Source: Gemmatimonadota bacterium
GTDB lineage: Bacteria > GCA-2686955
Assembly: GCA_002686955.1 (NCBI GenBank)
Contig: NYZA01000079.1
Coordinates: 1 to 12,903 of the forward strand
Direction of reading: 5' to 3'
DNA: 12,903 nucleotides
The position numbers and the translations under genes were made by a program. The notes beneath the pieces are model-generated. The model saw only the letters and a program-made list of their open reading frames with translations, did not search any database and was not told where the DNA came from. Below, piece by piece: positions 615-12,813 of this stretch (its first letter is position 1; every line of letters begins with the position of its first letter).

Positions 615-691
<77 letters not shown>

Positions 692-1013: not shown

Positions 1014-1715
1014 TCATCGCGGCTGTCCGTAGAGCCGGTGCAGCAGCTCCGCCGGCACCCCCAGCCGGAACGCCAGGGGGAAGGTGCGCATTGCCAGGAT
1101 CGAGCGGAGGGGGGCGGCCTGGAAGCGGCGGGCCGAGACGCGCACACTTGCATCCGCCCGGCGAATCGTCCCTCTACAGGCCAACCGCTGGCAGATCTCG
1201 ATATCTTCCATGAGCGGCAGATCGGCGAAGCCGCCGAGGGCCCGAAAGCTCTCGTCGCGTAGAAAGAGCCCCTGATCTCCATAGGGGAATCGGGAGAAAC
1301 GCGAGCGGAGATCGGCCAGTCGGAACACGGCCCGGGTGATCGCGGAGCAGGGTCGGTCCGGCTCGGTGCGGGTCCGGAAGCAGCCGGCGATCGGCGGGGG
1401 CGAGCCGCCGCGCGCGGCGAGCGTGTCACGAATCGTCTGGTGGGCGCCCTCCGGAAGACGAACGTCCGCGTGAAGAAAGAGGAGAACTTCGCCCCGGGCG
1501 AGGGCGGCCCCGGCATTCATCTGGGTGCCCCGCCCCCGCTGAGCCTCGATGACATGATCGGCACCGGCGCGTCCGGCGCGGTCGATCGTGGCGTCCGTGC
1601 TGCCCCCGTCCGCGACGATCAGCTCCCAATTACCGGGCTGGCGGCGCAGCTCCGCGATCGCATCGGCGATGCGCGCCCCTTCGTCGAGGACGGGGATGAT
1701 GGTGGAGATCAACAT
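1014..1715 (-). CDS. Family 2 (GT-A fold) glycosyltransferase, TIGR04283-like
   Basis: The predicted product is a 233-residue cytosolic glycosyltransferase. It opens with the family-2 pattern STIIPVLDEG (residues 4-13), followed by the nucleotide-sugar segment ELIVADGGSTD (31-41), QRGRGTQMNAGA (59-70), and LFLHADVRLP (79-88), whose HAD replaces the metal-binding DxD. PYGDQG (144-149) and LMEDIE (168-173) are acceptor/catalytic-side motifs. This matches the small glycosyltransferases described as rSAM/selenodomain-associated transferase 2. The substrate is unknown. The frame extends 97 codons upstream, but that part is antisense to the peptidase gene and low-complexity, so I place the start at the Met just before the family motif. 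No strong Shine-Dalgarno sequence is visible, so the start is moderately certain. No rSAM or selenodomain partner lies in the window. Confidence 0.88.
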   Translation of the reverse strand: MLISTIIPVLDEGARIADAIAELRRQPGNWELIVADGGSTDATIDRAGRAGADHVIEAQRGRGTQMNAGAALARGEVLLFLHADVRLPEGAHQTIRDTLAARGGSPPPIAGCFRTRTEPDRPCSAITRAVFRLADLRSRFSRFPYGDQGLFLRDESFRALGGFADLPLMEDIEICQRLACRGTIRRADASVRVSARRFQAAPLRSILAMRTFPLAFRLGVPAELLHRLYGQPR

Positions 1716-1754
1716 GCCGGACACTTTACGATGGAGCTCTCGTTCATTCTTCCC

Positions 1755-1766: not shown

Positions 1767-3269
1767 ATGCTTCGATCCCGCCCTTTCTTTTCGATCGCTT
1801 CCGCGTTTCTTCCGGCCGTCTACGGCGGCGATGCCCTCTCCGCCGCGATCGAGATCGCGCTCAGAGTCGACGAGGGAAGCGTCGAGATCATCGCTGCGCG
1901 CGAGCGGGCACACGCGCTTCGTGCGGCCGCCCCCGCGCCGGCGTCGATGCCCGGGGTCTGGATCGAGGTCGCCGGCCGAAAGGGCGAGCACCTGCGACGC
2001 ATCCATCTCGGCGATCCGCTCCTGCTTCCCTATGACGACATGAGGGATGGGGCGGCTGGTCTCGGCCTCGGTCGGGTCGAGGAACGCACGCTATTCATCC
2101 CCGTTCCCCTTCCCCCCGGCGCCCATGAGATTCGAGTGAGCGGTGACCGGGGGGAGCTGCTCGACGAGATCGAGCTGCGCGATCTTTCGCGGTTGATCGA
2201 GTCCCCGGTCGCTGTTCCAGATGCACCCCCTACCGAGGCTGTTCGCATAACGGGCGACTCGAAAAACCGTCTCGACCTGCTCTTCATGGGCGACGGCTAC
2301 CGCGTCGAGGAGTGGGACCGTTTTCGCTCCGATGTCGATGCCTGCGTGGCGGCTCTGCTCGGAAGCCAGCCATTTCTGACTTACCCTGAGAGCATCAACA
2401 TCTGGCGTCTACCGCTACGTTCCGCCGAATCCGGGGCGGACCATCCTTGCGACGGAATTTTCCGACAAACTCGGCTCGGCGCAACTTACGATTGGCCTGC
2501 ATGTCGGACGCGAATGATGTCGTACGACTATTTCGATGCTTGGCTCACGGCGACCCGAGCTCTGCCCGCCTGGGACGATCTGATCGTGCTGGTCAACGAT
2601 CCCGAACGCGCCGGCGCCATGCCGCCTTTCGCGCCCGGGCCGGTGTACAGCAACAGAGATTTCGACTACCTGACCGTGCATGAGTGGATCGGACACGATT
2701 TGGCGGGCCTTATGGACGAATACGACGCGACCGATGATGTCGGACCGATCGGGCTGCCCTACAGCCCGAACTGCTCATTGAGCCGCCTCTTTCCTCCCTG
2801 GCGCCATTGGATTCGCGAAGGTGAGCCGGGGATCGGCGCCTTTCCGAGCTGCGCTTTCGACAATCTCTATCGTCCAACCGATGTATCGTGTGTGATGCGG
2901 GTCTTTTGGCCACTTGGTTTCGACGCCTTTTGTCGCGAACGGGCGATCAAGGGCCTCTTCCGCGTGATCCATCCGATCGATGGCAGCGATCCACCGGCGC
3001 GCGATCTGGTGGCGATCGGCGCTGGGGAAGAGCGTGAGTTCGAGGTGACGACAATCGACCCGGTCGGGCATTCGCTACATTTCGTGTGGTCGCTCGATGG
3101 GACAATAGTTCAAGCGGGGGACGAGAACCGGTTCTCGCTCGAAGGTGGCGATCTGTCGCCGGGGTCGCATTCGCTCCGCGTCGATGTGCACGATCCGAAC
3201 GAGATGGTTCTCAGAGATCGCCGGAATCTGATGGACGACAGGATTTCGTGGGATGTGTTGCGTGAGTAG
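1767..3269 (+). CDS. Secreted M64-family (IgA peptidase-like) metallopeptidase with altered zinc motif
   Basis: The predicted product has 500 residues. Residues 1-27 resemble a signal peptide (basic start, then hydrophobic FFSIASAFLPAVYGG), so it is probably exported. Residues about 60-140 form a beta-rich N-terminal domain. The M64 domain begins near NRLDLLFMGDGY (167-178) and includes DDLIVLVNDP (270-279), the metal site at 305-319, WRHWI (345-349) and YRPTDVSCVMR (368-378). Residues about 411-500 look like an Ig/PKD-type domain. M64 enzymes are zincins of the HExxH type with a downstream DEY. Here the site reads HEWIGHDLAGLMDEY: DEY and its spacing are kept, but one residue is added between HE and GH. 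Activity is therefore uncertain. The gene is divergent from the glycosyltransferase and 11 bp upstream of the kinase gene. The cleavage target is unknown. Confidence 0.85.
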   Translation: MLRSRPFFSIASAFLPAVYGGDALSAAIEIALRVDEGSVEIIAARERAHALRAAAPAPASMPGVWIEVAGRKGEHLRRIHLGDPLLLPYDDMRDGAAGLGLGRVEERTLFIPVPLPPGAHEIRVSGDRGELLDEIELRDLSRLIESPVAVPDAPPTEAVRITGDSKNRLDLLFMGDGYRVEEWDRFRSDVDACVAALLGSQPFLTYPESINIWRLPLRSAESGADHPCDGIFRQTRLGATYDWPACRTRMMSYDYFDAWLTATRALPAWDDLIVLVNDPERAGAMPPFAPGPVYSNRDFDYLTVHEWIGHDLAGLMDEYDATDDVGPIGLPYSPNCSLSRLFPPWRHWIREGEPGIGAFPSCAFDNLYRPTDVSCVMRVFWPLGFDAFCRERAIKGLFRVIHPIDGSDPPARDLVAIGAGEEREFEVTTIDPVGHSLHFVWSLDGTIVQAGDENRFSLEGGDLSPGSHSLRVDVHDPNEMVLRDRRNLMDDRISWDVLRE

Positions 3270-3280
3270 AGGGGGAGTGC

Positions 3281-6200
3281 GTGGCCGCTGATCTGATCGG
3301 TGATCGATACCGGCTCCTGGAGCCGATCGGCGTGGGTGGCATGGGACAGGTTTTTCGCGCGGAGGATCTGCTGGCCCACGCGCCGGTTTGTGTGAAGCGC
3401 GCGCGGGAGCACGATGCTCGTTCGGCGGTGGTTGCGCGGGTTCGGCGTGAGTTTCGCGTGGGTAGCATGGTGGCGCATCCAAATCTGTTGCCGGTTCTCG
3501 ATCTGGTCGAAGAGGGGGGAGAGCCGTGGCTGGTGATGGAGCTGATCGAGGGACCTTCGCTCGAAGATCTCCTGGTCGGCTGCGGGGGGGAAGGGTTGCG
3601 CGCCGCGGGTGTGGTGGCACTGGGTCGTCAACTGGCGCGAGGCCTGGCGTGGTTTCACGAGTGGGTTGGGGAGAAGCACCGCGACATCAAGCCGGGCAAC
3701 ATCTTGATCGAGCCGGCGCGGTCGTTGGGCGATCGGAGGCTCACCTTGGCCGAGCTGGTTCCCGCTCCCGGCGAGGCTCCCTCCTTTCGAGCGATGATCG
3801 CCGATTTCGGGTTGGCGACCGGCGCAACAAGGATCTCGCGCAGCGATGCGGTGCCCGGCACGATCATGTTCACCGCTCCGGAGGTGATGCGGCTGGGAAG
3901 GAGCGCCACGGTGCGATCCGATCTCTACTCGCTGGGGCGAACCCTCGAATGCGCAATCCTCGGGCAACCACAGCCGAGCGAGGTCGAGCCGACCTCGGCG
4001 GGAGCGCTGCGGGAGGCGGTGGGGGACCGACTGGCTGGAATCGTCGGTCGGCTGCTCGCCCCCGATCCGGAGCAGCGTCTCGCCTCCGCGGCGGAGCTGG
4101 AGGGCGCCTTGGAGGAGATCGCCGAAAGGGCCAGCCTGAGCGCGTTTGGCTCGAGCTCGGGCTCCCCTCGGGCTTTTTTTCGTCGCGCGCGCCTCGACGA
4201 GCTGCTGCATCTCTGTGAGTCCCCCGTGGGCCCGGAAGGTCGGCTCGTCTTTCTACGAGGGGCGCCGCTCAGCGGTCGCGCGACCCTCCTGCACCGCCTG
4301 GCACGGATTCTCGATGCGCCCGCGATGACGGTTCGCCACGGGGAGCGGGCACTCGAGCCGCTCGCCCGATTGGCGCAAGACCTCATCGCCATGTCCGCCG
4401 AGGAGGAAGAGGGGCGGCGCCGCCGCGTCTTGGGGGACGAAGAGGGAGCGCTTCGGATTCTCGTAGGGCTCGGGGCGAAAGAGGACGGGTTGGGGGAAGA
4501 ACCGCTCCCCCCGGTCGATCCGCTCGCGCAGGCCCTGGGGCGGGTGCTGCGGCGGCACTTCGAAGAGGCGTCGCCGAATCTGCTCGTTCACGATCTCGAT
4601 CTGGCGGCAACGGAGGCGATCGCCTGCCTGGAGCAGGTGCTGCAGGTGTGCGGGCGCGTGACCTTGGTCGCGAGCGTCGGCCTCGACCGGCTGCCGGAGC
4701 GGCTCGAGAGGTTCGCGCAGTCGGCGCGGCGGCGCTGGGCCGATGTTCGCGAGATCGAGTGCGGCGAGATCTCGCCAGTAGAGGCGGCCGGCTGGGTGCA
4801 ATGGGCGTGCGAGGGTGTCTCGCAGCGCGAGGCCGGTGCTTTGGCGGAAGAGGCTCTCGCCTGGTTTGGGCGGGGGGCACGGGCGCTTTCGCTCGGTCTG
4901 GGTCAGCTGCGGGCGGAGGGGCTGCTCGAGAGGGGGGAGGGGGGAGCGCTGCCCGCGCTGGGAGTTGAGAGCTGGCCGGGGGAGGGACGACTTGGGAGAT
5001 TGTACGCGCGGCAGCGCGAAGGGCTGCCGGAGCTGGCGGAGAAAGTGCTGAGTCTGCTCGATCCGGCGGAATCGGACGGAATCGGCGCGTTGGAGCTAGC
5101 GGCCGGAATGGAGCAGGAGGAGATACCGGTCGCCGATGCGCTCGAAGAGCTGCGACTGCGTGCACTCGTTCGTATTCGTGCGCCGGTTGGCGATCGGCCG
5201 AGCTACGCGCTCGCGGCGGGGATGCTCCACGGGTCAGGCACCGAGTCGCGAGCCATCGACCCGGCCTTCCACGAGCGGGCCGCGCGGGCGCTCGACCGGC
5301 TCGACGACCCAGAGGCCCTGCGACGATGTGCCTTTCATCTCGAGAAGGCAGGGCGATCGGCCGAAGCGGTCGAGAAGCTGACCGCCCTTGCGCGTCGCCT
5401 CGATCCGCTTCGTCCTCCCGAGGCGGTTCAGCATCGTCTGCACGCGCTTTCGCTGCTTCCGGAATCGGCGATGCGCCCGAAGATCTTGCTGGAAGCGGCC
5501 CAGGCGGCGCTTCAGCACGAGCCGCCCACGGCCGGCAAGCTCTTCGCGGGTGTTTTGGGCGCACTGGAGCTCCTGCCGGTGTCGGAACGGGGGGCCGTGG
5601 AGTGTGAGGCGCGTGGTGGCCTGGTGACCTTCGAGCTTCTCATGGGGCGCCCGGAGGGGATGAAGCGAGAGATCGAGCTGCTCGACGCTTTGGATGATCT
5701 CGATGAGATCGCGGAGCACCAAAGGCTCCTTGCGCGGGCGACGCCGATTCTGGAGTCCGATGCGGCGGCCGCTCTCGAACTGCTCGACCGCTGTGCGCCC
5801 CGCTCCGGAGGCGAGCTCGATCGGTTCGCGTTTCGGTGGGCCGAGATCGGTTTCTGGCCCCTCTATTCCATGCGGCGCTTCGACGAGGCCGAGCAGCACG
5901 CCGAGCTTTGGCGGGATCGCGCTCTCGCGAGGGGACACGAAGTCGCGATGGCCGTCTTCCTCATGAATCTCGCCCAAGCCAGAGCGGCGGTGCAGCGCCT
6001 CGATGAGGCTGAGCGGACCTTGGTCAACGCCCTCGAGCTGGCCAGAAAGAGCGGCGCCTCCCTTCGGATCTTGCAGGTCGCGCTCGCATTGGGGCGCCTC
6101 CTGGTGAGAAACGAGAGGGCCTCGGAGGGGCGTGAGGTTTTCTGCGCGGCGGAGGCACTTGCGAGACGTTGCGGAAAGTACAACGAGGCGAGGGTCTCCT

Positions 6201-6943
6201 ACGAGCTCGGCACCGTCTGTGCTCATGCCGAGCTCTGGAACGAAGCCCAAGCCCATTATTCGCGCTCCTTCGCCGACTTGACGGCTTTGAGGCACCGCCA
6301 CCGATTCTACGTCGCCGCGAACCTGGTGGAGGCTCGGATGAGCACCGGGGACCTCGAGGGGGCACGAGAGACTCTCGAGTGGGTCATGACCGATGTGGCG
6401 GACTCGCCGGACGCCCCGCCGGCCCTACGAGACTCGCTGCTGGTATGGGCCCGCGTAATCGAGGGGATGCTGCTCGTCTCGGAAGGACACCCGGAGAAGG
6501 CAGTTCACACGCTGCGAGAGGCGATGCCGGAAACGAATCTCGGTGCCGCTGAGGCGGTGATTCGTGAGCATTGGGCGGAGGGCCTTTGCGACGCCTTGCG
6601 CGGGCTGGGCCGGGCCGAAGAGGCGGAGCCGATCGCGCTCGGGCAGGTCGAATGGACAAAGTCGGAGCAGTTGGCGTCTCGCGCACCGGCTGCGCGCCGA
6701 CTTTTCGCGGGGGTTCTGGCTGATCGGGGGCGGCTCGACGAGGCGCTGGATGAGCTCAGGATCGGCCGGGGCATCGCTGTGGCTCTGGGCCAGCGCTGGG
6801 AGGAATCGAAAATCTTCTCCGCGGCTGCGCGGATTCATGAGAAAGCGGATAGGATAGAGATGCGTCAGCGATGTCGCACGACGGCGCGCGCACTCAAACA
6901 GTGGCTCAGGGAGGGGATCCTGGATGGGCAATCGCCGGCTTGA
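3281..6943 (+). CDS. Hanks-type Ser/Thr kinase fused to STAND-like ATPase region and TPR repeats
   Basis: The predicted product has 1220 residues, with no signal peptide or membrane helix. Kinase domain (about 8-285): glycine loop IGVGGMGQVF (16-25), Lys39, probable helix-C Glu57, HRDIKPGN (133-140), DFG (175-177) and APE (199-201), so all catalytic residues are present. The stretch between HRDxxxxN and DFG is about 34 residues, roughly 20 longer than usual. Residues about 320-500 resemble a STAND/AAA_16 ATPase. The P-loop-like GAPLSGRAT (327-335) has Arg in place of the Lys, and LLVHDLD (434-440) is a weak Walker B. A winged-helix-like segment may follow (580-650), then helical TPR-type repeats to the C-terminus. 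The start is GTG with GGGGGAG 5 nt upstream. The architecture recalls PknK-like regulators. It probably senses a ligand or partner through the TPRs and phosphorylates proteins, possibly the downstream activator (inference). Confidence 0.9.
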   Translation: MAADLIGDRYRLLEPIGVGGMGQVFRAEDLLAHAPVCVKRAREHDARSAVVARVRREFRVGSMVAHPNLLPVLDLVEEGGEPWLVMELIEGPSLEDLLVGCGGEGLRAAGVVALGRQLARGLAWFHEWVGEKHRDIKPGNILIEPARSLGDRRLTLAELVPAPGEAPSFRAMIADFGLATGATRISRSDAVPGTIMFTAPEVMRLGRSATVRSDLYSLGRTLECAILGQPQPSEVEPTSAGALREAVGDRLAGIVGRLLAPDPEQRLASAAELEGALEEIAERASLSAFGSSSGSPRAFFRRARLDELLHLCESPVGPEGRLVFLRGAPLSGRATLLHRLARILDAPAMTVRHGERALEPLARLAQDLIAMSAEEEEGRRRRVLGDEEGALRILVGLGAKEDGLGEEPLPPVDPLAQALGRVLRRHFEEASPNLLVHDLDLAATEAIACLEQVLQVCGRVTLVASVGLDRLPERLERFAQSARRRWADVREIECGEISPVEAAGWVQWACEGVSQREAGALAEEALAWFGRGARALSLGLGQLRAEGLLERGEGGALPALGVESWPGEGRLGRLYARQREGLPELAEKVLSLLDPAESDGIGALELAAGMEQEEIPVADALEELRLRALVRIRAPVGDRPSYALAAGMLHGSGTESRAIDPAFHERAARALDRLDDPEALRRCAFHLEKAGRSAEAVEKLTALARRLDPLRPPEAVQHRLHALSLLPESAMRPKILLEAAQAALQHEPPTAGKLFAGVLGALELLPVSERGAVECEARGGLVTFELLMGRPEGMKREIELLDALDDLDEIAEHQRLLARATPILESDAAAALELLDRCAPRSGGELDRFAFRWAEIGFWPLYSMRRFDEAEQHAELWRDRALARGHEVAMAVFLMNLAQARAAVQRLDEAERTLVNALELARKSGASLRILQVALALGRLLVRNERASEGREVFCAAEALARRCGKYNEARVSYELGTVCAHAELWNEAQAHYSRSFADLTALRHRHRFYVAANLVEARMSTGDLEGARETLEWVMTDVADSPDAPPALRDSLLVWARVIEGMLLVSEGHPEKAVHTLREAMPETNLGAAEAVIREHWAEGLCDALRGLGRAEEAEPIALGQVEWTKSEQLASRAPAARRLFAGVLADRGRLDEALDELRIGRGIAVALGQRWEESKIFSAAARIHEKADRIEMRQRCRTTARALKQWLREGILDGQSPA

Positions 6944-6960
6944 GCCAGACTCCGAGAACA

Positions 6961-6967
6961 GGGAGAG
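6961..6967 (+). promoter_or_regulatory. Ribosome binding site deciding the start of the exported protein
   Basis: GGGAGAG lies 4 nt before the ATG at 6972. An in-frame ATG at 6924 would overlap the kinase gene by 20 bp and would put 16 polar residues ahead of a clear signal peptide, so the later start is preferred. Confidence 0.65.
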
Positions 6968-6971
6968 ACCG

Positions 6972-8105
6972 ATGATCCGCTCGACAACAATCCTCCTCGG
7001 GACCGCTCTGGTCATGGTCGAGGTTGCTGCGGGTTCGAGAGCGGATCTGTCCGCCCGGGCTTCCGGGGTCGAACCCTTCGCGGGCGATCTCATCGCCAAA
7101 GAGGAGTCCTTGCCCGGCCCCAACGCCTCGAAACGCGATTGCGAGCCGCCGAAGGTGTTGACGGTCTTCGACCTGTCCGGCCCCGAATCGATCATCGCCG
7201 AATGGGAGCAGATCGCCGGCGACTCGCTCGGATACATCGTGCGCCGCATGCAAGAGGGAGCGATTCCGCCGACCGATTCGCTCGAGGCCGGCGACATCGT
7301 GATCTGGACCACCGGCATCGACACGCTCGAGGGCCCCGGCGATCTCTCCTGTCTTACACCCGAGGAGGAGGACACTCTTCTGGCCTACCTCCTCGATCCC
7401 TCGCCGGGAGTGAAGCCGGCGCTCTACCTCGAATCGCCCGACTATCTCGACGAGCAGATCGCCGACGACGCGGTCTCTCCTCTGGCGACGGCACTCGGCA
7501 TCGCCGATGTCGATACCACCGATTTCACGCGCGACGAAATGTTCGTGCAGACCTGCGGTCCGCTGACCGGTTTCCGTCCCGGGTTCCATACTCCTACCCG
7601 CCGGCGTTTCAATCAGCCCGACGACTACACGGTTCTTCCTCCCGTCACCCGGGCGCTCACCGTGGTCGACACCAACGGGGTCCACATTCCGGCCCACCTA
7701 TGGGACGAGGGAAGCTACTCGGTCAGCTTCGCCACGTTCCTCTTGAAGAGCAACGACGAGAACGGCGATCCGGACGATTACCCCCAAGACTCGGTCACCT
7801 GGGTCCGCCTCGCTCTGACTGAGCTGGGGCATCGGCCCCTCTTCTACCTGGGACCGGCGTGGAACGACACGACTCTCCAGGCGCCCCAGGGTGGAGAGCT
7901 CAACTTCGACGCCGAGGTCTACAACTGCATGGGAGCCCCCTACCGCGACGGCTCGCCGCAGCGTGAGAGCGGCTTCGGCCTGCACGCCGCGATCACCGAT
8001 GCGAACGGTGTCGTGCTGCACAGCTTCGAGAAGTTCTCGCTCGAGATCGAGGCCGGGGTGATTCGGGCGATTCCGTCCCCTCGGCGCGCAGTCTCGACGA
8101 GGTGA
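6972..8105 (+). CDS. Exported protein of unknown function with possible GATase1-like fold
   Basis: The predicted product has 377 residues. The first 25 form a signal peptide (MIRS start, hydrophobic TTILLGTALVMVEVAAG, possible cleavage after SRA). I recognise no named family. Residues about 60-200 carry KVLTVFDLSG, then GDIVIWTTGID (108-117), TPEEEDTLLAYL (129-140) and PALYLESPDYLDE (149-161). This 'event line, decide to open, bounded by a list of elements set aside' pattern is like the flavodoxin/class-I-glutamine-amidotransferase-like domains in secreted proteins of several GC-rich phyla, but no catalytic triad is evident. Residues about 225-300 look beta-rich. The gene starts 28 bp after the kinase gene and ends in a GTGA overlap with the sigma-54 activator, so the two are probably translationally coupled. 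It could be the envelope sensor or output of this cluster, but that is a guess. Confidence 0.75.
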   Translation: MIRSTTILLGTALVMVEVAAGSRADLSARASGVEPFAGDLIAKEESLPGPNASKRDCEPPKVLTVFDLSGPESIIAEWEQIAGDSLGYIVRRMQEGAIPPTDSLEAGDIVIWTTGIDTLEGPGDLSCLTPEEEDTLLAYLLDPSPGVKPALYLESPDYLDEQIADDAVSPLATALGIADVDTTDFTRDEMFVQTCGPLTGFRPGFHTPTRRRFNQPDDYTVLPPVTRALTVVDTNGVHIPAHLWDEGSYSVSFATFLLKSNDENGDPDDYPQDSVTWVRLALTELGHRPLFYLGPAWNDTTLQAPQGGELNFDAEVYNCMGAPYRDGSPQRESGFGLHAAITDANGVVLHSFEKFSLEIEAGVIRAIPSPRRAVSTR

Positions 8106-9847
8106 TCTCCCGCGCCGCCGATGTGCTCGGGGTGATCGACCGGACGGCCAAGGAGATCGATCCTGACGCTCCCCACGTCGAGGAGTCGGCGGAACGGATT
8201 CAGGCATCGAGCCGTCAGCTCAGGCTCTTGCTGGACCGTGCCCGCGAGCTGCCGCCGCCGGACTCCGAGCCTCGCCGCGTGGCTCCACCGGAGCGCCGGA
8301 GCGATGGGAGCGATGGGGCGGGCGAGGCGAGGTTCGAGATCGGTGTGCCGCGGGGGGACCGGCCGGAACAGGTTGCCCAGGACGCCGCCGTCAAGCTGGC
8401 CGGGAGCATCGAGGCCGACCTGGTCTTCGTCGCCGAGCTCGATTCGGATGGGGAGAGTTTCAGGCAGCTCGGGCGGGCGAGCTCGCACCCGCGGCATGGG
8501 CGGGGCGACCGCGCGGAGGAGACGATCGAGGCCAGCCGGGGCATTCTACGGAACGCCTGTCGGAACAGGGAGCCGGAAATCGTGGTCGATGCCTGGAACG
8601 ATGCGCGTTACCAGCGCCGCCAGAGCGTGACCAGCCAGAACATCCGATCGGTGATGGCCGCGCCCCTGATCGATCGAGGAGGCGAGGTCTTTGGCGTTAT
8701 CTACGCCGATCGCCGGGGCATCGCCTGCAAGCCATTCGGCGCGAGCACGCGGCGGGCCTTCGAGCGGCTGGTCGAGAGCGCGAACGATCTAATCAACGAC
8801 GCACGTGAACGCTCGGGCGGGGATCGGAGCGGAACCGACCTGGCGGAGATCCGTCTGAGAGCCACGCGACCGATCCTGGGCGATTCCGAGACGATCGAAG
8901 AAGCGAGGCAGCTCGCGGCCGCTTTCGCGGCGACCCACGCGCCGGTACTGATCACGGGCGAGCGTGGAACCGGCAAGGAGCTCTTCGCCCGCGCTCTGCA
9001 CGAAATGAGTCCCTGGCATGGCGGAAGACTGGTGCGCCTGCAAGGCCCATTCCTCGTGGGCGATACCGGCAACGCCGAGATCCGCGGGTGGAAGAAGGGG
9101 GCCTTCACCGGTGCGATCGAGTCGCAGCCCGGCGCCTTCGAGCAGGCGGCGGACGGAACCGTCTTCATCGACGAGGTCGCCGATCTCGATCCCAAGGCGC
9201 AGGCCGCTCTGCTCGTGGCCCTCGATCCCGGCGTGGTTCGCCGCCTGGGGGAGACCGAATCACGCATGGTGACCGCCCGGGTGATCGCCGCGACAAATCG
9301 CGACCTGCACACGCTCGCCGCCGAGGGCGAATTCCGCCGCGATCTGCTCGATCGCCTCTCGGCGTTGGAGCTGCGTCTGCCGCCGCTTCGAGAGCGCCGA
9401 TCCGATCTATTGCTGCTTTTCTGGCAATTCGTGGCTTCGACCGACCTCCCGCTGGAGAGCCGGCCCGACTCGCTCTCTCCCGACGCGGAGCGCTGGCTGA
9501 TGGCCCATCCCCTCGAGGGGAATGTGCGTGAGCTGAAGAACCTGGCGACCCGATCCTGCGTGATGGCGACCTACCGTGGCTCGACCACGATCGAGAGGGA
9601 CGATCTCGCCGATGATGGCAAGCCCGCCCCGCTCATGGCCTGGCCCCAATTCCGCAGGGCTATTCTCGATGCCGCGCCGCCGGAGGAGCGGGACGGGGAG
9701 CTCGGAGCCTGGCTCGAGGGATGGCATGCGGCCACCGGCGGATCGCGAAAAAGGATGTGCGAGCAGGCCTGCCTGAGTGACACCCGGCTGCGCACCCTCA
9801 TTAGAGAAGCGGGCGCGGAGACCTCGTGGGCGTCGGCGAAAGGGTAG
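8102..9847 (+). CDS. GAF-domain sigma-54-dependent transcriptional activator (bacterial enhancer-binding protein)
   Basis: The predicted product has 581 residues. Residues about 1-80 hold a helical, then low-complexity, segment. Residues about 85-230 form a GAF domain (SVMAAPLIDRGGEVFGVIYAD). Residues about 250-480 form the sigma-54 AAA+ domain: Walker A GERGTGKE (286-293), GAFTGA (333-338), Walker B VFIDE (354-358), FRRDLLDRL (411-419), LPPLRERRSD (426-435) and GNVREL (473-478). Residues about 540-575 form a Fis-type helix-turn-helix (SRKRMCEQACLSDTRLRTLI). GAFTGA is intact, so it should contact sigma-54. The usual ELFGHE before GAFTGA is replaced by EIRGWK. There is no receiver domain, so control is by GAF ligand, partner or phosphorylation. 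The start is GTG overlapping the previous stop. A sigma-54-like promoter with paired upstream palindromes lies just downstream and is the likely target. Confidence 0.92.
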   Translation: MISRAADVLGVIDRTAKEIDPDAPHVEESAERIQASSRQLRLLLDRARELPPPDSEPRRVAPPERRSDGSDGAGEARFEIGVPRGDRPEQVAQDAAVKLAGSIEADLVFVAELDSDGESFRQLGRASSHPRHGRGDRAEETIEASRGILRNACRNREPEIVVDAWNDARYQRRQSVTSQNIRSVMAAPLIDRGGEVFGVIYADRRGIACKPFGASTRRAFERLVESANDLINDARERSGGDRSGTDLAEIRLRATRPILGDSETIEEARQLAAAFAATHAPVLITGERGTGKELFARALHEMSPWHGGRLVRLQGPFLVGDTGNAEIRGWKKGAFTGAIESQPGAFEQAADGTVFIDEVADLDPKAQAALLVALDPGVVRRLGETESRMVTARVIAATNRDLHTLAAEGEFRRDLLDRLSALELRLPPLRERRSDLLLLFWQFVASTDLPLESRPDSLSPDAERWLMAHPLEGNVRELKNLATRSCVMATYRGSTTIERDDLADDGKPAPLMAWPQFRRAILDAAPPEERDGELGAWLEGWHAATGGSRKRMCEQACLSDTRLRTLIREAGAETSWASAKG

Positions 9848-9853
9848 AGGCTG

Positions 9854-9900
9854 CCCGCAAAAGTGCGGGACCGGGATACGGAGACCCGCAAAACTGCGGC
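9854..9900. promoter_or_regulatory. Tandem palindromes, candidate enhancer sites for the adjacent activator
   Basis: Copy 1 (9854-9869) is CCCGCAAAAGTGCGGG, a perfect dyad with 6-bp arms. Copy 2 (9885-9900) is CCCGCAAAACTGCGGC, with CCGCA/TGCGG arms. They differ at only two of 16 bases and start 31 bp apart, about three helical turns, so both would face the same side of the DNA. They begin 7 bp after the activator stop codon and lie about 90-136 bp upstream of the start predicted from the -24/-12 element. That is a usual distance for dimeric enhancer-binding proteins. They could alternatively act as paired RNA hairpins at the end of the activator mRNA, but no T-run follows. Confidence 0.6.
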
Positions 9901-9923
9901 TAGGCCCCGAGGAGCGCATTCAG

Positions 9924-9948
9924 TAAGTCATGAAGTTTCAATGACTTA
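9924..9948. repeat. AT-rich inverted repeat overlapping an IHF-like sequence
   Basis: TAAGTCAT (9924-9931) and ATGACTTA (9941-9948) are perfect 8-bp arms around a 9-nt spacer, which can itself pair partly (GAA with TTC). It is AT-rich compared with its surroundings. The right part, TTTCAATGACTTA (9936-9948), matches the IHF consensus WATCAANNNNTTR at all but one defined position. It lies between the tandem palindromes and the -24/-12 element, where a bend site is expected. No T-run follows, so a terminator is unlikely. Whether this organism has IHF is unknown. Confidence 0.45.
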
Positions 9949-9963
9949 GTGTGTTCAGCTCTT

Positions 9964-9979
9964 TGGCGAGCTCTTTGCC
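9964..9979 (+). promoter_or_regulatory. Candidate sigma-54 (-24/-12) promoter of the sigma-70-family gene
   Basis: TGGCGAGCTCTTTGCC matches the sigma-54 consensus TGGCAC-N5-TTGCW at the key elements: GG at 9965-9966 and GC at 9977-9978 with exact spacing. The deviations are GA for AC and a final C. Transcription would start near 9990, giving a leader of about 48 nt. The element is embedded in two direct copies of AGCTCTTTG (9957-9965 and 9969-9977) with a 12-bp period. The neighbouring gene encodes a sigma-54 activator with intact GAFTGA, which raises the likelihood. Confidence 0.6.
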
Positions 9980-9997
9980 TTGAGAGCCCCGTGACGG

Positions 9998-10014
9998 CGA
10001 GCCATTCCGGCTCG
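9998..10014 (+). promoter_or_regulatory. Hairpin in the predicted leader of the sigma-70-family gene
   Basis: CGAGCC (9998-10003) pairs perfectly with GGCTCG (10009-10014) around ATTCC. If transcription starts near 9990, the hairpin lies in the 5' leader, ending 23 nt before the ATG and 11 nt before the GGGA at 10026-10029. It could stabilise the message or affect translation, but it may also be chance in GC-rich DNA. Confidence 0.3.
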
Positions 10015-10037
10015 ACCCGAAACACGGGACAGCTCTC

Positions 10038-10748
10038 ATGCAGACGCAACAGATTTCAGCCACGACCCTCGAGCTCCATCGACTCTTCCGCGAGGTGGCC
10101 CGGCAAGGGAGCGCCCCGACGACCGAGCAGCAAGGCTCGATCCATCGGCTTCTCTTCGACGGGCCGCGCTCACCGGTGGCGGCGATGATCCGCAAGTATC
10201 TCGGCCGCTGCGACGGATACCGCAGGTTCCTCCAGTCCACGAACGACGAGACCGATCTGGTGAACGACACCTTCGTCGCGCTGATTCATGCCCTCGAGGC
10301 AGGCCAGTACAGCGGCGAGCAAGCCAGCCCCTTCGGTTTCGTCAAAACGATCGCGATCCGCTGGATCCGCGGGCAGGCCCTGCGTGGTCGCACCCGCGCG
10401 AAGCACGCCTCTCGGCCCGAGCGAGACGATGAGATCGATCCGGTCGAACTCGTCCCAGATGGGCCGAGCGCCGATCCCTCGATCGCCTTCGATCGAGACC
10501 AGGTCAGGGAGTGGACCGAACGCCTGGCCTCGCGCCTGAGCGAATCGGACCGCAGTGTGCTGCGGGCTCGCTATGCGGAGGATCTGAGCCACGAAGCGAT
10601 CGCCCAGCGGCTGGGAAAGCCCTCGGCGGGAGCATCGCGGATCGGACTCATGAGGATCCACAGGCGGATCGAGGCGATGATCCATGACATGCCGGGATGC
10701 GAAGACCGGCTGCGTGGCGCGATGACACGCTTGGCCGCCGCGGCGTAG
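10038..10748 (+). CDS. Sigma-70-family (ECF-like) RNA polymerase sigma factor
   Basis: The predicted product has 236 residues. Region 2 (about 46-115) includes ETDLVNDTFVALIHAL and SPFGFVKTIAIRWIRGQALR, corresponding to core binding and -10 recognition. An acidic linker (about 128-155) follows. Region 4 (about 165-215) includes LSESDRSVLRARYAEDLSHEAIAQRLGK and SRIGLMRIHRRI, the -35-binding helix-turn-helix. Regions 1 and 3 are missing, as in ECF factors, but the linker is long. GGGA at 10026-10029 lies 8 nt before the ATG. No anti-sigma gene is adjacent: the next gene is a membrane enzyme. Control may therefore be at transcription, by the -24/-12 promoter upstream. Its regulon is unknown; the sulfatase-fold gene 94 bp downstream is one candidate. 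Confidence 0.88.
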   Translation: MQTQQISATTLELHRLFREVARQGSAPTTEQQGSIHRLLFDGPRSPVAAMIRKYLGRCDGYRRFLQSTNDETDLVNDTFVALIHALEAGQYSGEQASPFGFVKTIAIRWIRGQALRGRTRAKHASRPERDDEIDPVELVPDGPSADPSIAFDRDQVREWTERLASRLSESDRSVLRARYAEDLSHEAIAQRLGKPSAGASRIGLMRIHRRIEAMIHDMPGCEDRLRGAMTRLAAAA

Positions 10749-10842: not shown

Positions 10843-12813
10843 ATGCGTGAGCACTCCATGTCGTCCGAACGCCGCATCTCTCTCGCCGCCGCACCCGGCC
10901 TGGCCTTCTTCGCCGGGGCGGCCCTGGGCACCGCCGAGGCGTTGCTCTATCTCATGCGCTATCCGGGTCTGCGCCCCATGGGTCTGGCCCAGGCTTTGGT
11001 TTCGGGCTCGAGCGTCGGCTTGGCGTTCGCCGCGGGCTCGCTCGTGCCGATCCTGATGGCGAAGCTGGCCGCCGCGCGCGATCCGGCCGAGCGCGACACC
11101 CGCTGGCAGCTCGGAGCGACCCTCTCGCTCCTGCTGGCAGGGGGCGCGGGAGTGATGGTCCTGGCGACATTTCGGGGCACCCTGATCTTCCGTCATCTTC
11201 CCGGCGGAGGGATCTCGCGCCTGCTCGCCCAGGCGATAATCGTCGCTCTTTCCCTCGCTCTGGCCGCCTGGCTGACGCCCAGGGCTACCCGCCGCTTGCG
11301 CCGTGACGGCGGAATACTGTCGCGAATGGCCGGGCGGGGTTGGGGGCTGCTGGCGAGCGCGCTGAGCATCGTCGCACTTTCCGCCCTGGCGGTGGTCCAG
11401 ATCGGGCGACCGAGCCGCGAGGCCGAAGCGTCGAGCCCGAGCGCACCGAATCTGATCCTGATCTCGATCGACACTCTGAGGGCCGATCATCTCGGCTGCT
11501 ACGGCTATGAGCGGCCGACCAGTCCCAATATCGATCGCCTTGCTCGGGGCGGAGTGCGTTTCGAACGTGCTTACACGACGTGGCCAACCTCGGCGCCGGG
11601 ACATGCCAGCATGCTGACCGGGCTCTATCCGCAGACCCACGGCGTCATGGGGAACGGATATCGTCTTTCATCCGTCGTGCCCACCCTTTCCGAGGTGGCC
11701 GCGGAGGCGGGCTTGCGCACGGGCGGATTCATCAACAACCCATGGCTTTCCTACACACTCGGCTTCTCGCAGGGGTTCGAGACATATTTCGATGCGGAGC
11801 GCCTGGAGCTAGCTTCGGAAGCCTGGATCGAGCTGCTCCTACAAAATGTGTCGCTTTATCGCCTGGCCGTCGGTCTCGTGCCGGGAGAACGCCAGCCCGC
11901 CACCAGGCTTGCCCTGCGCTGGATCGAACGACACAAAGAAGAGCGTTTCTTCCTCTTCCTGCACCTGCTCGATCCCCATCAGCCCTACCACCCCGATCCG
12001 GCTTTTCGGGACCGCTTCCTCGATGCGATCGGTCTCGACGATCCCGGAGACACACGTGTCTTCATGGGAACCAGTGAGAAGAAGGGGCGGGGCGGCATGG
12101 GGCGCAACCTGGGCGAGACGGTGCCGATGAGCGAGGAGATGGAGCGGGCGGTCGTCGCGCGTTACGACGAATGCGTGCTCAACGCCGACCGGCGGATCGG
12201 AGAGCTGCTCGACGCCTTGGGGCAGCTCGGCCTCGATGATCGCAGCGTCGTGCTCCTCACCTCCGATCACGGCGAGAACATGGCCGACAACCAACCCCGT
12301 TTCAACCACGAGGGGTTGCACCAATCGATCCTCCATATCCCCTTCATTCTGAGAGGACCCGGAGTGGCGCCGGCGGCGGATCATCGTCAGGCGCCGGTAA
12401 GCCTGGTCGATGTCGTGCCCACGCTCGCCGATCTGGGCGCTCTGGAGCCACCGCCCTTCCAGGCGGGGGTTTCTCTGATCGATCGTTCGCTACGGCTCGA
12501 GGAGCGGAGTGTGTTGGCGATCGAAGGGGTCGATCCCGCAACGCAAAAAAAGGCGGTCGCGACGCGCGACTGGAAGCTGGTCCGCTCCAACGCATTCGGT
12601 CGAATGCTCGTTCCGACCGACCGACCGGAGGGCCTGAATCCGCCCGATCGCGACGCGTCCGACAGCCATCCCGAGCTCGCCGACAGCCTCGAGATCGTGC
12701 TGGAGCAGGGCCATGCGGCCTGCCTCGAAAACGCCTACCCCTCCGAAGAGGGCGTCGCCGAGCTCGATGAGGAGCGGATCGAGCAACTCAAGGCGCTGGG
12801 GTATTTGAACTAG
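10843..12813 (+). CDS. Membrane-anchored sulfatase/phosphodiesterase-fold enzyme (alkaline phosphatase superfamily)
   Basis: The predicted product has 656 residues. About five hydrophobic helices occupy residues 12-37, 46-74, 90-110, 123-145 and 166-187. The catalytic domain follows (about 200-630), probably periplasmic. Metal-site motifs are NLILISIDTLRADHLGCYGY (203-222), LLDPHQPYHP (375-384), TSDHGEN (473-479) and the FNHEGLHQ region (487-494). The nucleophile segment reads TSAPGHASMLTGLYP (249-263). Aligned with C-x-P-x-R of sulfatases, Cys is Ser250 and Arg is His254. This resembles the T/S-x-P-S-H variant of sulfatase-like hydrolases and argues against a classic formylglycine sulfatase; a phosphodiester or phosphoglycerol-type activity is possible. 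The C-terminus LKALGYLN is typical of this subfamily. GGGG at 10837-10840 supports ATG 10843; ATG 10858 is an alternative. Confidence 0.85.
   Translation: MREHSMSSERRISLAAAPGLAFFAGAALGTAEALLYLMRYPGLRPMGLAQALVSGSSVGLAFAAGSLVPILMAKLAAARDPAERDTRWQLGATLSLLLAGGAGVMVLATFRGTLIFRHLPGGGISRLLAQAIIVALSLALAAWLTPRATRRLRRDGGILSRMAGRGWGLLASALSIVALSALAVVQIGRPSREAEASSPSAPNLILISIDTLRADHLGCYGYERPTSPNIDRLARGGVRFERAYTTWPTSAPGHASMLTGLYPQTHGVMGNGYRLSSVVPTLSEVAAEAGLRTGGFINNPWLSYTLGFSQGFETYFDAERLELASEAWIELLLQNVSLYRLAVGLVPGERQPATRLALRWIERHKEERFFLFLHLLDPHQPYHPDPAFRDRFLDAIGLDDPGDTRVFMGTSEKKGRGGMGRNLGETVPMSEEMERAVVARYDECVLNADRRIGELLDALGQLGLDDRSVVLLTSDHGENMADNQPRFNHEGLHQSILHIPFILRGPGVAPAADHRQAPVSLVDVVPTLADLGALEPPPFQAGVSLIDRSLRLEERSVLAIEGVDPATQKKAVATRDWKLVRSNAFGRMLVPTDRPEGLNPPDRDASDSHPELADSLEIVLEQGHAACLENAYPSEEGVAELDEERIEQLKALGYLN

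Follow-up and report, generated by a model that had tools for sequence, protein, structure and literature searches.

Sigma-54 activators (EBPs) are the textbook partners of histidine kinases, and FHA-domain EBPs that work with Ser/Thr kinases are known from Myxococcus. The kinase plus MalT-like type of protein is represented in Mycobacterium tuberculosis by PknK, which has a role in transcription control. This kinase plus MalT-like architecture has been described, as have cyanobacterial chains in which a Ser/Thr kinase is joined to a GAF domain and a histidine kinase (PMC1262709). Surveys of EBP input domains list receiver, PAS, GAF, PTS, PRD or V4R domains, with no Ser/Thr kinase class found in them (PMC3162934, PMC12316311); the 2011 survey distinguishes receiver, PAS, GAF and PTS classes, and the term 'threonine kinase' occurs nowhere in its text (PMC3162934). 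We found no description of kinase-sigma-54 fusions in the searchable literature, which leaves most subscription papers outside it, and an earlier description is possible.

The window, by which we mean the whole 12,903 bp of DNA analyzed here, is an entire contig (C79) of an incomplete genome (G000; 4.28 Mb in 270 contigs, 84.5% complete), and it encodes a large Ser/Thr kinase and a GAF-containing EBP as separate proteins. The EBP resembles NtrC/NifA-type activators in having a GAF domain, an AAA+ domain with GAFTGA and, by eye, a C-terminal helix-turn-helix-like segment, but differs from them in its pairing with a Ser/Thr kinase, which elsewhere becomes a fusion, and in having no receiver. The logic of a Ser/Thr kinase leading to a sigma-54 activator is shared with the Myxococcus FHA-EBPs, although the EBP of the window is without FHA and its kinase carries STAND/TPR-like domains. 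Proteins of the PknK type likewise have their Ser/Thr kinase at the N-terminus and a STAND-like region after it in the same chain (PMC1262709); for them, however, no sigma-54 activator partner or fusion has been reported, and the P-loop in the window is dead. The cyanobacterial dual kinases similarly join a Ser/Thr kinase to a GAF-containing signalling output, but that output is a histidine kinase and not a sigma-54 activator (PMC1262709).

The gene cluster and its products

The ORFs and the Pfam matches agree in placing four genes on one strand, coding for an M64-family protein, the kinase, an exported orphan and the EBP (Table 1). There are 11 bp between the M64 stop at 3269 and the GTG start of the kinase at 3281, and 28 bp between the kinase stop at 6943 and the ATG of the orphan at 6972, and the orphan TGA and the EBP GTG share a 4-bp GTGA overlap at 8102-8105; these spacings are as the original prediction had them. 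We note also that the surroundings of the EBP include sulfatase-family genes both here and in the relative G001, in differing orientation (10843-12813 here; L056:3514-5559 and 7220-9394 in the relative).

Table 1. Positions of genes and candidate control sites in the window
Feature	Position	Strand	Basis or remark
tRNA gene	615-688		adjoins ribosomal protein L28
Ribosomal protein L28 gene	752-994		upstream of M64 side
Glycosyltransferase, TIGR04283 (arsenosugar biosynthesis) family	1014-1721		divergent from M64
M64-family exported protein	1767-3269	+	Pfam; probably leads the transcript here
Ser/Thr kinase–AAA_16–TPR protein, 1220 aa	3281-6943	+	ORF, Pfam, motif alignment; core part; kinase 1-285, degenerate AAA_16/STAND-like about 295-560, TPR arm about 690-1210
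Conserved exported orphan, 377 aa	6972-8105	+	signal-like N-terminus, ortholog in G001
GAF–sigma-54 activator (EBP)	8102-9847	+	Pfam, conserved motifs; core part
14-bp palindrome CCGCAAAAGTGCGG	9855-9868		candidate EBP site; sequence search, shuffles
Second 14-bp palindrome CCGCAAAACTGCGG	9886-9899		31 bp from first; sequence search, shuffles
Weak sigma-54-like promoter TGGCGAG-CTCT-TTGCC (TGGCGAGctctTTGCC)	9964-9979	+	GG/GC spacing correct, sub-consensus
ECF-like sigma-70-family factor	10038-10748	+	downstream of EBP
Sulfatase-family gene	10843-12813		downstream of sigma gene

The M64 protein and the orphan both begin with a hydrophobic signal-like segment, in keeping with the earlier view that the cluster encodes two exported proteins. 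The first of these had been called an M64-like peptidase, and the family assignment holds (Peptidase_M64, 84.6 bits against a Pfam cut-off of 26), but the canonical HExxH zinc motif is replaced by HEWIGH (HExxxH, within HEWIGHDLAGLMDEY), which is one residue longer, and peptidase activity should therefore not be assumed; judging from this motif, the protein is possibly a non-peptidase or altered-metal member of the family. The ortholog in G001 reads HEWVGH, and HE[FL]GH is found in those more distant relatives whose motif could be read. For the orphan there is no family match in Pfam or NCBIfam, a PDB sequence search gave nothing meaningful, a scan of genome contigs recovered only the known relative, and an AlphaFold2 model with a pLDDT of 33 was left unused. 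The segment 'DIVIWTTG...LYLES.DYLDEQ' may resemble exported Rossmann-like domains of other little-studied phyla, a tentative lead with no database support.

The kinase domain (Pkinase, 94.9 bits, residues 10-233; Pfam) has all of the Hanks-type features, namely the beta3 Lys, HRD and DFG (motifs at residues 133 and 175), is of the canonical RD type in an alignment of 12 kinases, and looks catalytic on these residues. A hydrophobicity check of the whole protein found no segment hydrophobic enough for a membrane helix, and its description as a giant soluble kinase thus stands. Its further description as a kinase-ATPase-TPR protein needs a correction in the middle, where the P-loop of the 'ATPase' is degenerate (SGRATLL, with no GxxxxGK[ST] and the Lys lost) in the window and in the G001 ortholog alike; the functional P-loop expected of a STAND ATPase of the PknK/MalT type is absent. 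The AAA_16 (residues 299-444) and TPR (residues 891-962) matches are both below the Pfam cut-off.

The EBP has Pfam matches to GAF (39 bits), Sigma54_activat (156 bits) and the lid, and Walker A (GERGTGKE), GAFTGA and Walker B (FIDEV) are kept in it and in its ortholog. No receiver domain was found with Pfam, as had been predicted, and by that criterion the protein is not a two-component response regulator; there is also no FHA domain (a phospho-Thr reader), unlike the EBP of G025:C117, which is an FHA-GAF-EBP adjoining a kinase, and no part of the chain has the hydrophobicity of a membrane helix. A search of the C-terminus at E values up to 0.1 gave no HTH_8 match, and a divergent helix-turn-helix-like segment can be seen by eye. 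The best NCBIfam matches, NifA and NorR, are both far below cut-off. A gene for sigma-54 itself (rpoN, PF04552) is present in both genomes, with 212.5 bits in G000 and 217.8 bits in G001.

Conservation in a sister genus and the region ahead of the sigma gene

The phylum of the window is represented among the genomes compared by G000 and G001 only, the latter belonging to another genus of the same family. Contig C6 of G001 carries the kinase C-terminus, the orphan and the EBP side by side, keeping the order and strand they have in the window, with 48% identity for the orphan and 49% for the EBP. The kinase is split over two contigs, with 59% identity at residues 1-337 and 41% at residues 1122-1211; its N-terminus lies at the end of C583, reading off the contig, with about 780 residues between the two parts unseen, and ahead of its start stands a divergent ORF, unrelated and of at most 892 aa. 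The M64 ortholog (58% identity) is on C322, flanked by what by eye are an enolase gene and a convergent sulfatase gene, and for the sigma gene this genome, which is only 83% complete, gives no match. Because M64 is unlinked and the sigma gene matchless in G001, we regard kinase, orphan and EBP as the conserved core on this single comparison; the one relative gives no evidence that M64 and the sigma factor belong to it. The predicted four-gene signalling unit is accordingly kept in the order of kinase end, orphan and EBP and not in M64, while membership of the sigma factor is not borne out.

The sigma gene is real by both Pfam and NCBIfam, yet it begins 190 bp downstream of the EBP. The two copies of the palindrome in the space between are the sole close pair in G000, and a palindrome pair with any arm sequence was seen in 0/2000 shuffles of the intergenic region. 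The sigma-54-like site beyond them is missing the ACG of the consensus; an exact -24/-12 core was obtained in 11/2000 shuffles of the same region, and a relaxed core is not enriched genome-wide in G000 (186 matches versus 174 for the control). The palindrome pair together with the sigma-54-like site resembles the glnA-like layout, in which activator sites stand in tandem ahead of a sigma-54 promoter. Control of the downstream sigma gene by the EBP is possible, although we think it rather unlikely that this gene is its direct target.

Two other explanations of the region were rejected, as the CCGCA-N4-TGCGG palindrome does not behave as a genome-wide regulon motif (6 sites in G000 versus 8 for a reversed control), and positions 9848-10037 are single copy and not a repeat element. 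An imperfect palindrome, CAGTAAGTCAT-N9-ATGACTTAGTG, lies at 9921-9951 just upstream of the sigma-54-like site and is a candidate operator. RNA folding predicts strong structure for the segment 9848-10060 (z -6.1), with a hairpin at 9981-10038 that pairs up to the start codon of the sigma gene (z -6.6), but the absolute energy of the 71-nt stretch concerned is unexceptional for the window, and no Rfam family matches the region. This structure may be that of a regulatory leader, or may simply reflect operator palindromes.

These observations bear on the unit as first proposed, in which the M64 protein and the orphan are envelope sensors acting with the kinase, the EBP and the sigma factor. The common strand and tight spacings are consistent with it, as are the palindrome pair and sigma-54-like site ahead of the sigma gene, but the G001 arrangement of M64 and sigma gene counts against it, and with no membrane segment in the kinase direct contact between it and an exported protein would not be possible; we consider this reading very improbable.

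Linkage and fusion of kinases and GAF-type EBPs

When the top-scoring distant relatives of the window's EBP are divided into those whose match covers its GAF part (n = 19, mostly from unrelated genomes) and EBP matches without it (n = 41), a kinase is within 6 kb or fused in 12/19 GAF-type EBPs but in only 1/41 of the others (Fisher p = 4e-7), a comparison in which rows are not fully independent, the classes were set from alignment extent after the first matches were known, and some flanks end at contig ends. With controls limited to the same genomes the counts are 12/19 versus 1/14 (p = 0.0014). Gene neighborhoods, which the original prediction had expected to unite all four families, thus show recurrent co-occurrence of kinase and EBP in unrelated genomes, and M64 unlinked in G001. 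A different arrangement is seen at L091:7486-10875 (G029:C37), where a kinase domain is C-terminal after FG-GAP repeats and the gene overlaps that of a GAF-EBP.

In several genomes the two partners are a single chain. The window's own genome encodes a 1,684-aa protein with the order Pkinase-TPR-GAF-Sigma54_activat-HTH_8 (G000:C174), and a genome of another phylum (G054) encodes a 1,624-aa kinase-EBP protein; 9/9 genomes of that phylum strongly match the fusion query, most including long ORFs. In the L180 and L178 fusions the kinase and TPR parts are separated by a clear AAA_16, and their order is that of the window's kinase followed by its EBP, such that some single chains have the full order kinase–AAA_16–TPR–GAF–sigma-54 AAA+; the fusions are about 1,600-1,850 aa in length. 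An N-terminal kinase match is present in 18/26 distinct long EBP ORFs inspected. No full-length fusion was found in plasmid sequence searches, and no NCBIfam model spans the whole architecture. Single chains with the order kinase-AAA_16-TPR-GAF-sigma-54 are greatly expanded in the phylum of G054 (L180, L178, L185 and others); G060 and G061 each contain many copies, with many ORFs of 1,500-1,850 aa.

It could be argued that kinase and EBP share a transcript and not a pathway, with the EBP switched by a ligand through its GAF domain and the kinase directed elsewhere, perhaps at the secretion of the orphan and M64 proteins. Small molecules are the usual ligands of GAF domains, the EBP has neither a phospho-reader nor a receiver domain, and the orphan gene sits between those of kinase and EBP, all of which would fit such an arrangement. 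Recurrent adjacency and repeated single-chain fusion would not be expected of an incidental pairing, however, and we judge this explanation unlikely. Fusion of the kinase and EBP genes makes a kinase-to-activator circuit the best explanation.

A related question is whether the kinase protein controls the EBP by contact, through STAND-like sequestration or scaffolding, with phosphorylation incidental. The modules are tethered in the fusions, several of the kinases are non-RD, and STAND/TPR proteins such as MalT act through conformational change (PMC4381067). Against this, all 12 aligned kinases retain the catalytic Lys and Asp and the DFG Asp, including those in which another residue takes the place of the HRD Arg, the window's kinase is of the RD type, and neither the window nor its ortholog has the P-loop required for STAND switching, unlike many fusions, which keep the P-loop Lys of the middle ATPase. 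Control by contact alone therefore seems rather unlikely to us. An interpretation of the fused kinases as pseudokinases without HRD/DFG was dropped on the same alignment.

In a tree of 75 AAA+ domains the kinase-linked EBPs are clustered (11 changes versus 22.9 when shuffled), and kinase linkage requires at least 6 separate changes on well-supported branches. The EBP of the window stands apart with its ortholog on a highly divergent branch (length 1.69) that groups with no particular fusion, and descent of the window's pair from any one fusion is therefore unsupported.

A putative kinase-controlled sigma-54 switch

We think it probable that the core is a kinase-controlled sigma-54 switch of two proteins, in which the sensor would be the soluble Ser/Thr kinase with its STAND-like middle domain and TPR arm and the output the GAF-AAA+ activator. 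The TPR/STAND part would bind a cytoplasmic cue, upon which the kinase would phosphorylate the EBP or rearrange it by contact, and the switched EBP would assemble and drive sigma-54 RNA polymerase at its target promoters, the adjacent sigma gene being one possible target. The exported orphan may be a co-regulated product or a monitored cargo, and M64 and the sigma factor would be local additions. What we infer in this scheme is that the EBP is phosphorylated, together with the cue, the target promoters and the role of the orphan. The divergence of the EBP, its want of an FHA domain and the split kinase of the one relative count against the kinase switch, as do the sub-cut-off AAA_16 and TPR matches and the weakness of the sigma-54-like site.

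More broadly, and tentatively, Ser/Thr kinase-coupled sigma-54 activators may form a recurrent undescribed class that operates without histidine kinases or receivers and is present in many copies per genome in some little-studied phyla, either as single chains (kinase, STAND/TPR, GAF, sigma-54 AAA+ and HTH) or as split pairs like that of the window. The fusions place a kinase and its likely substrate in one chain, so that whether kinase catalysis switches an AAA+ activator becomes a simple question. If the class is real, such recurrent coupling to Ser/Thr kinases, frequently within a single chain, would give bacteria a further route to running sigma-54 promoters.
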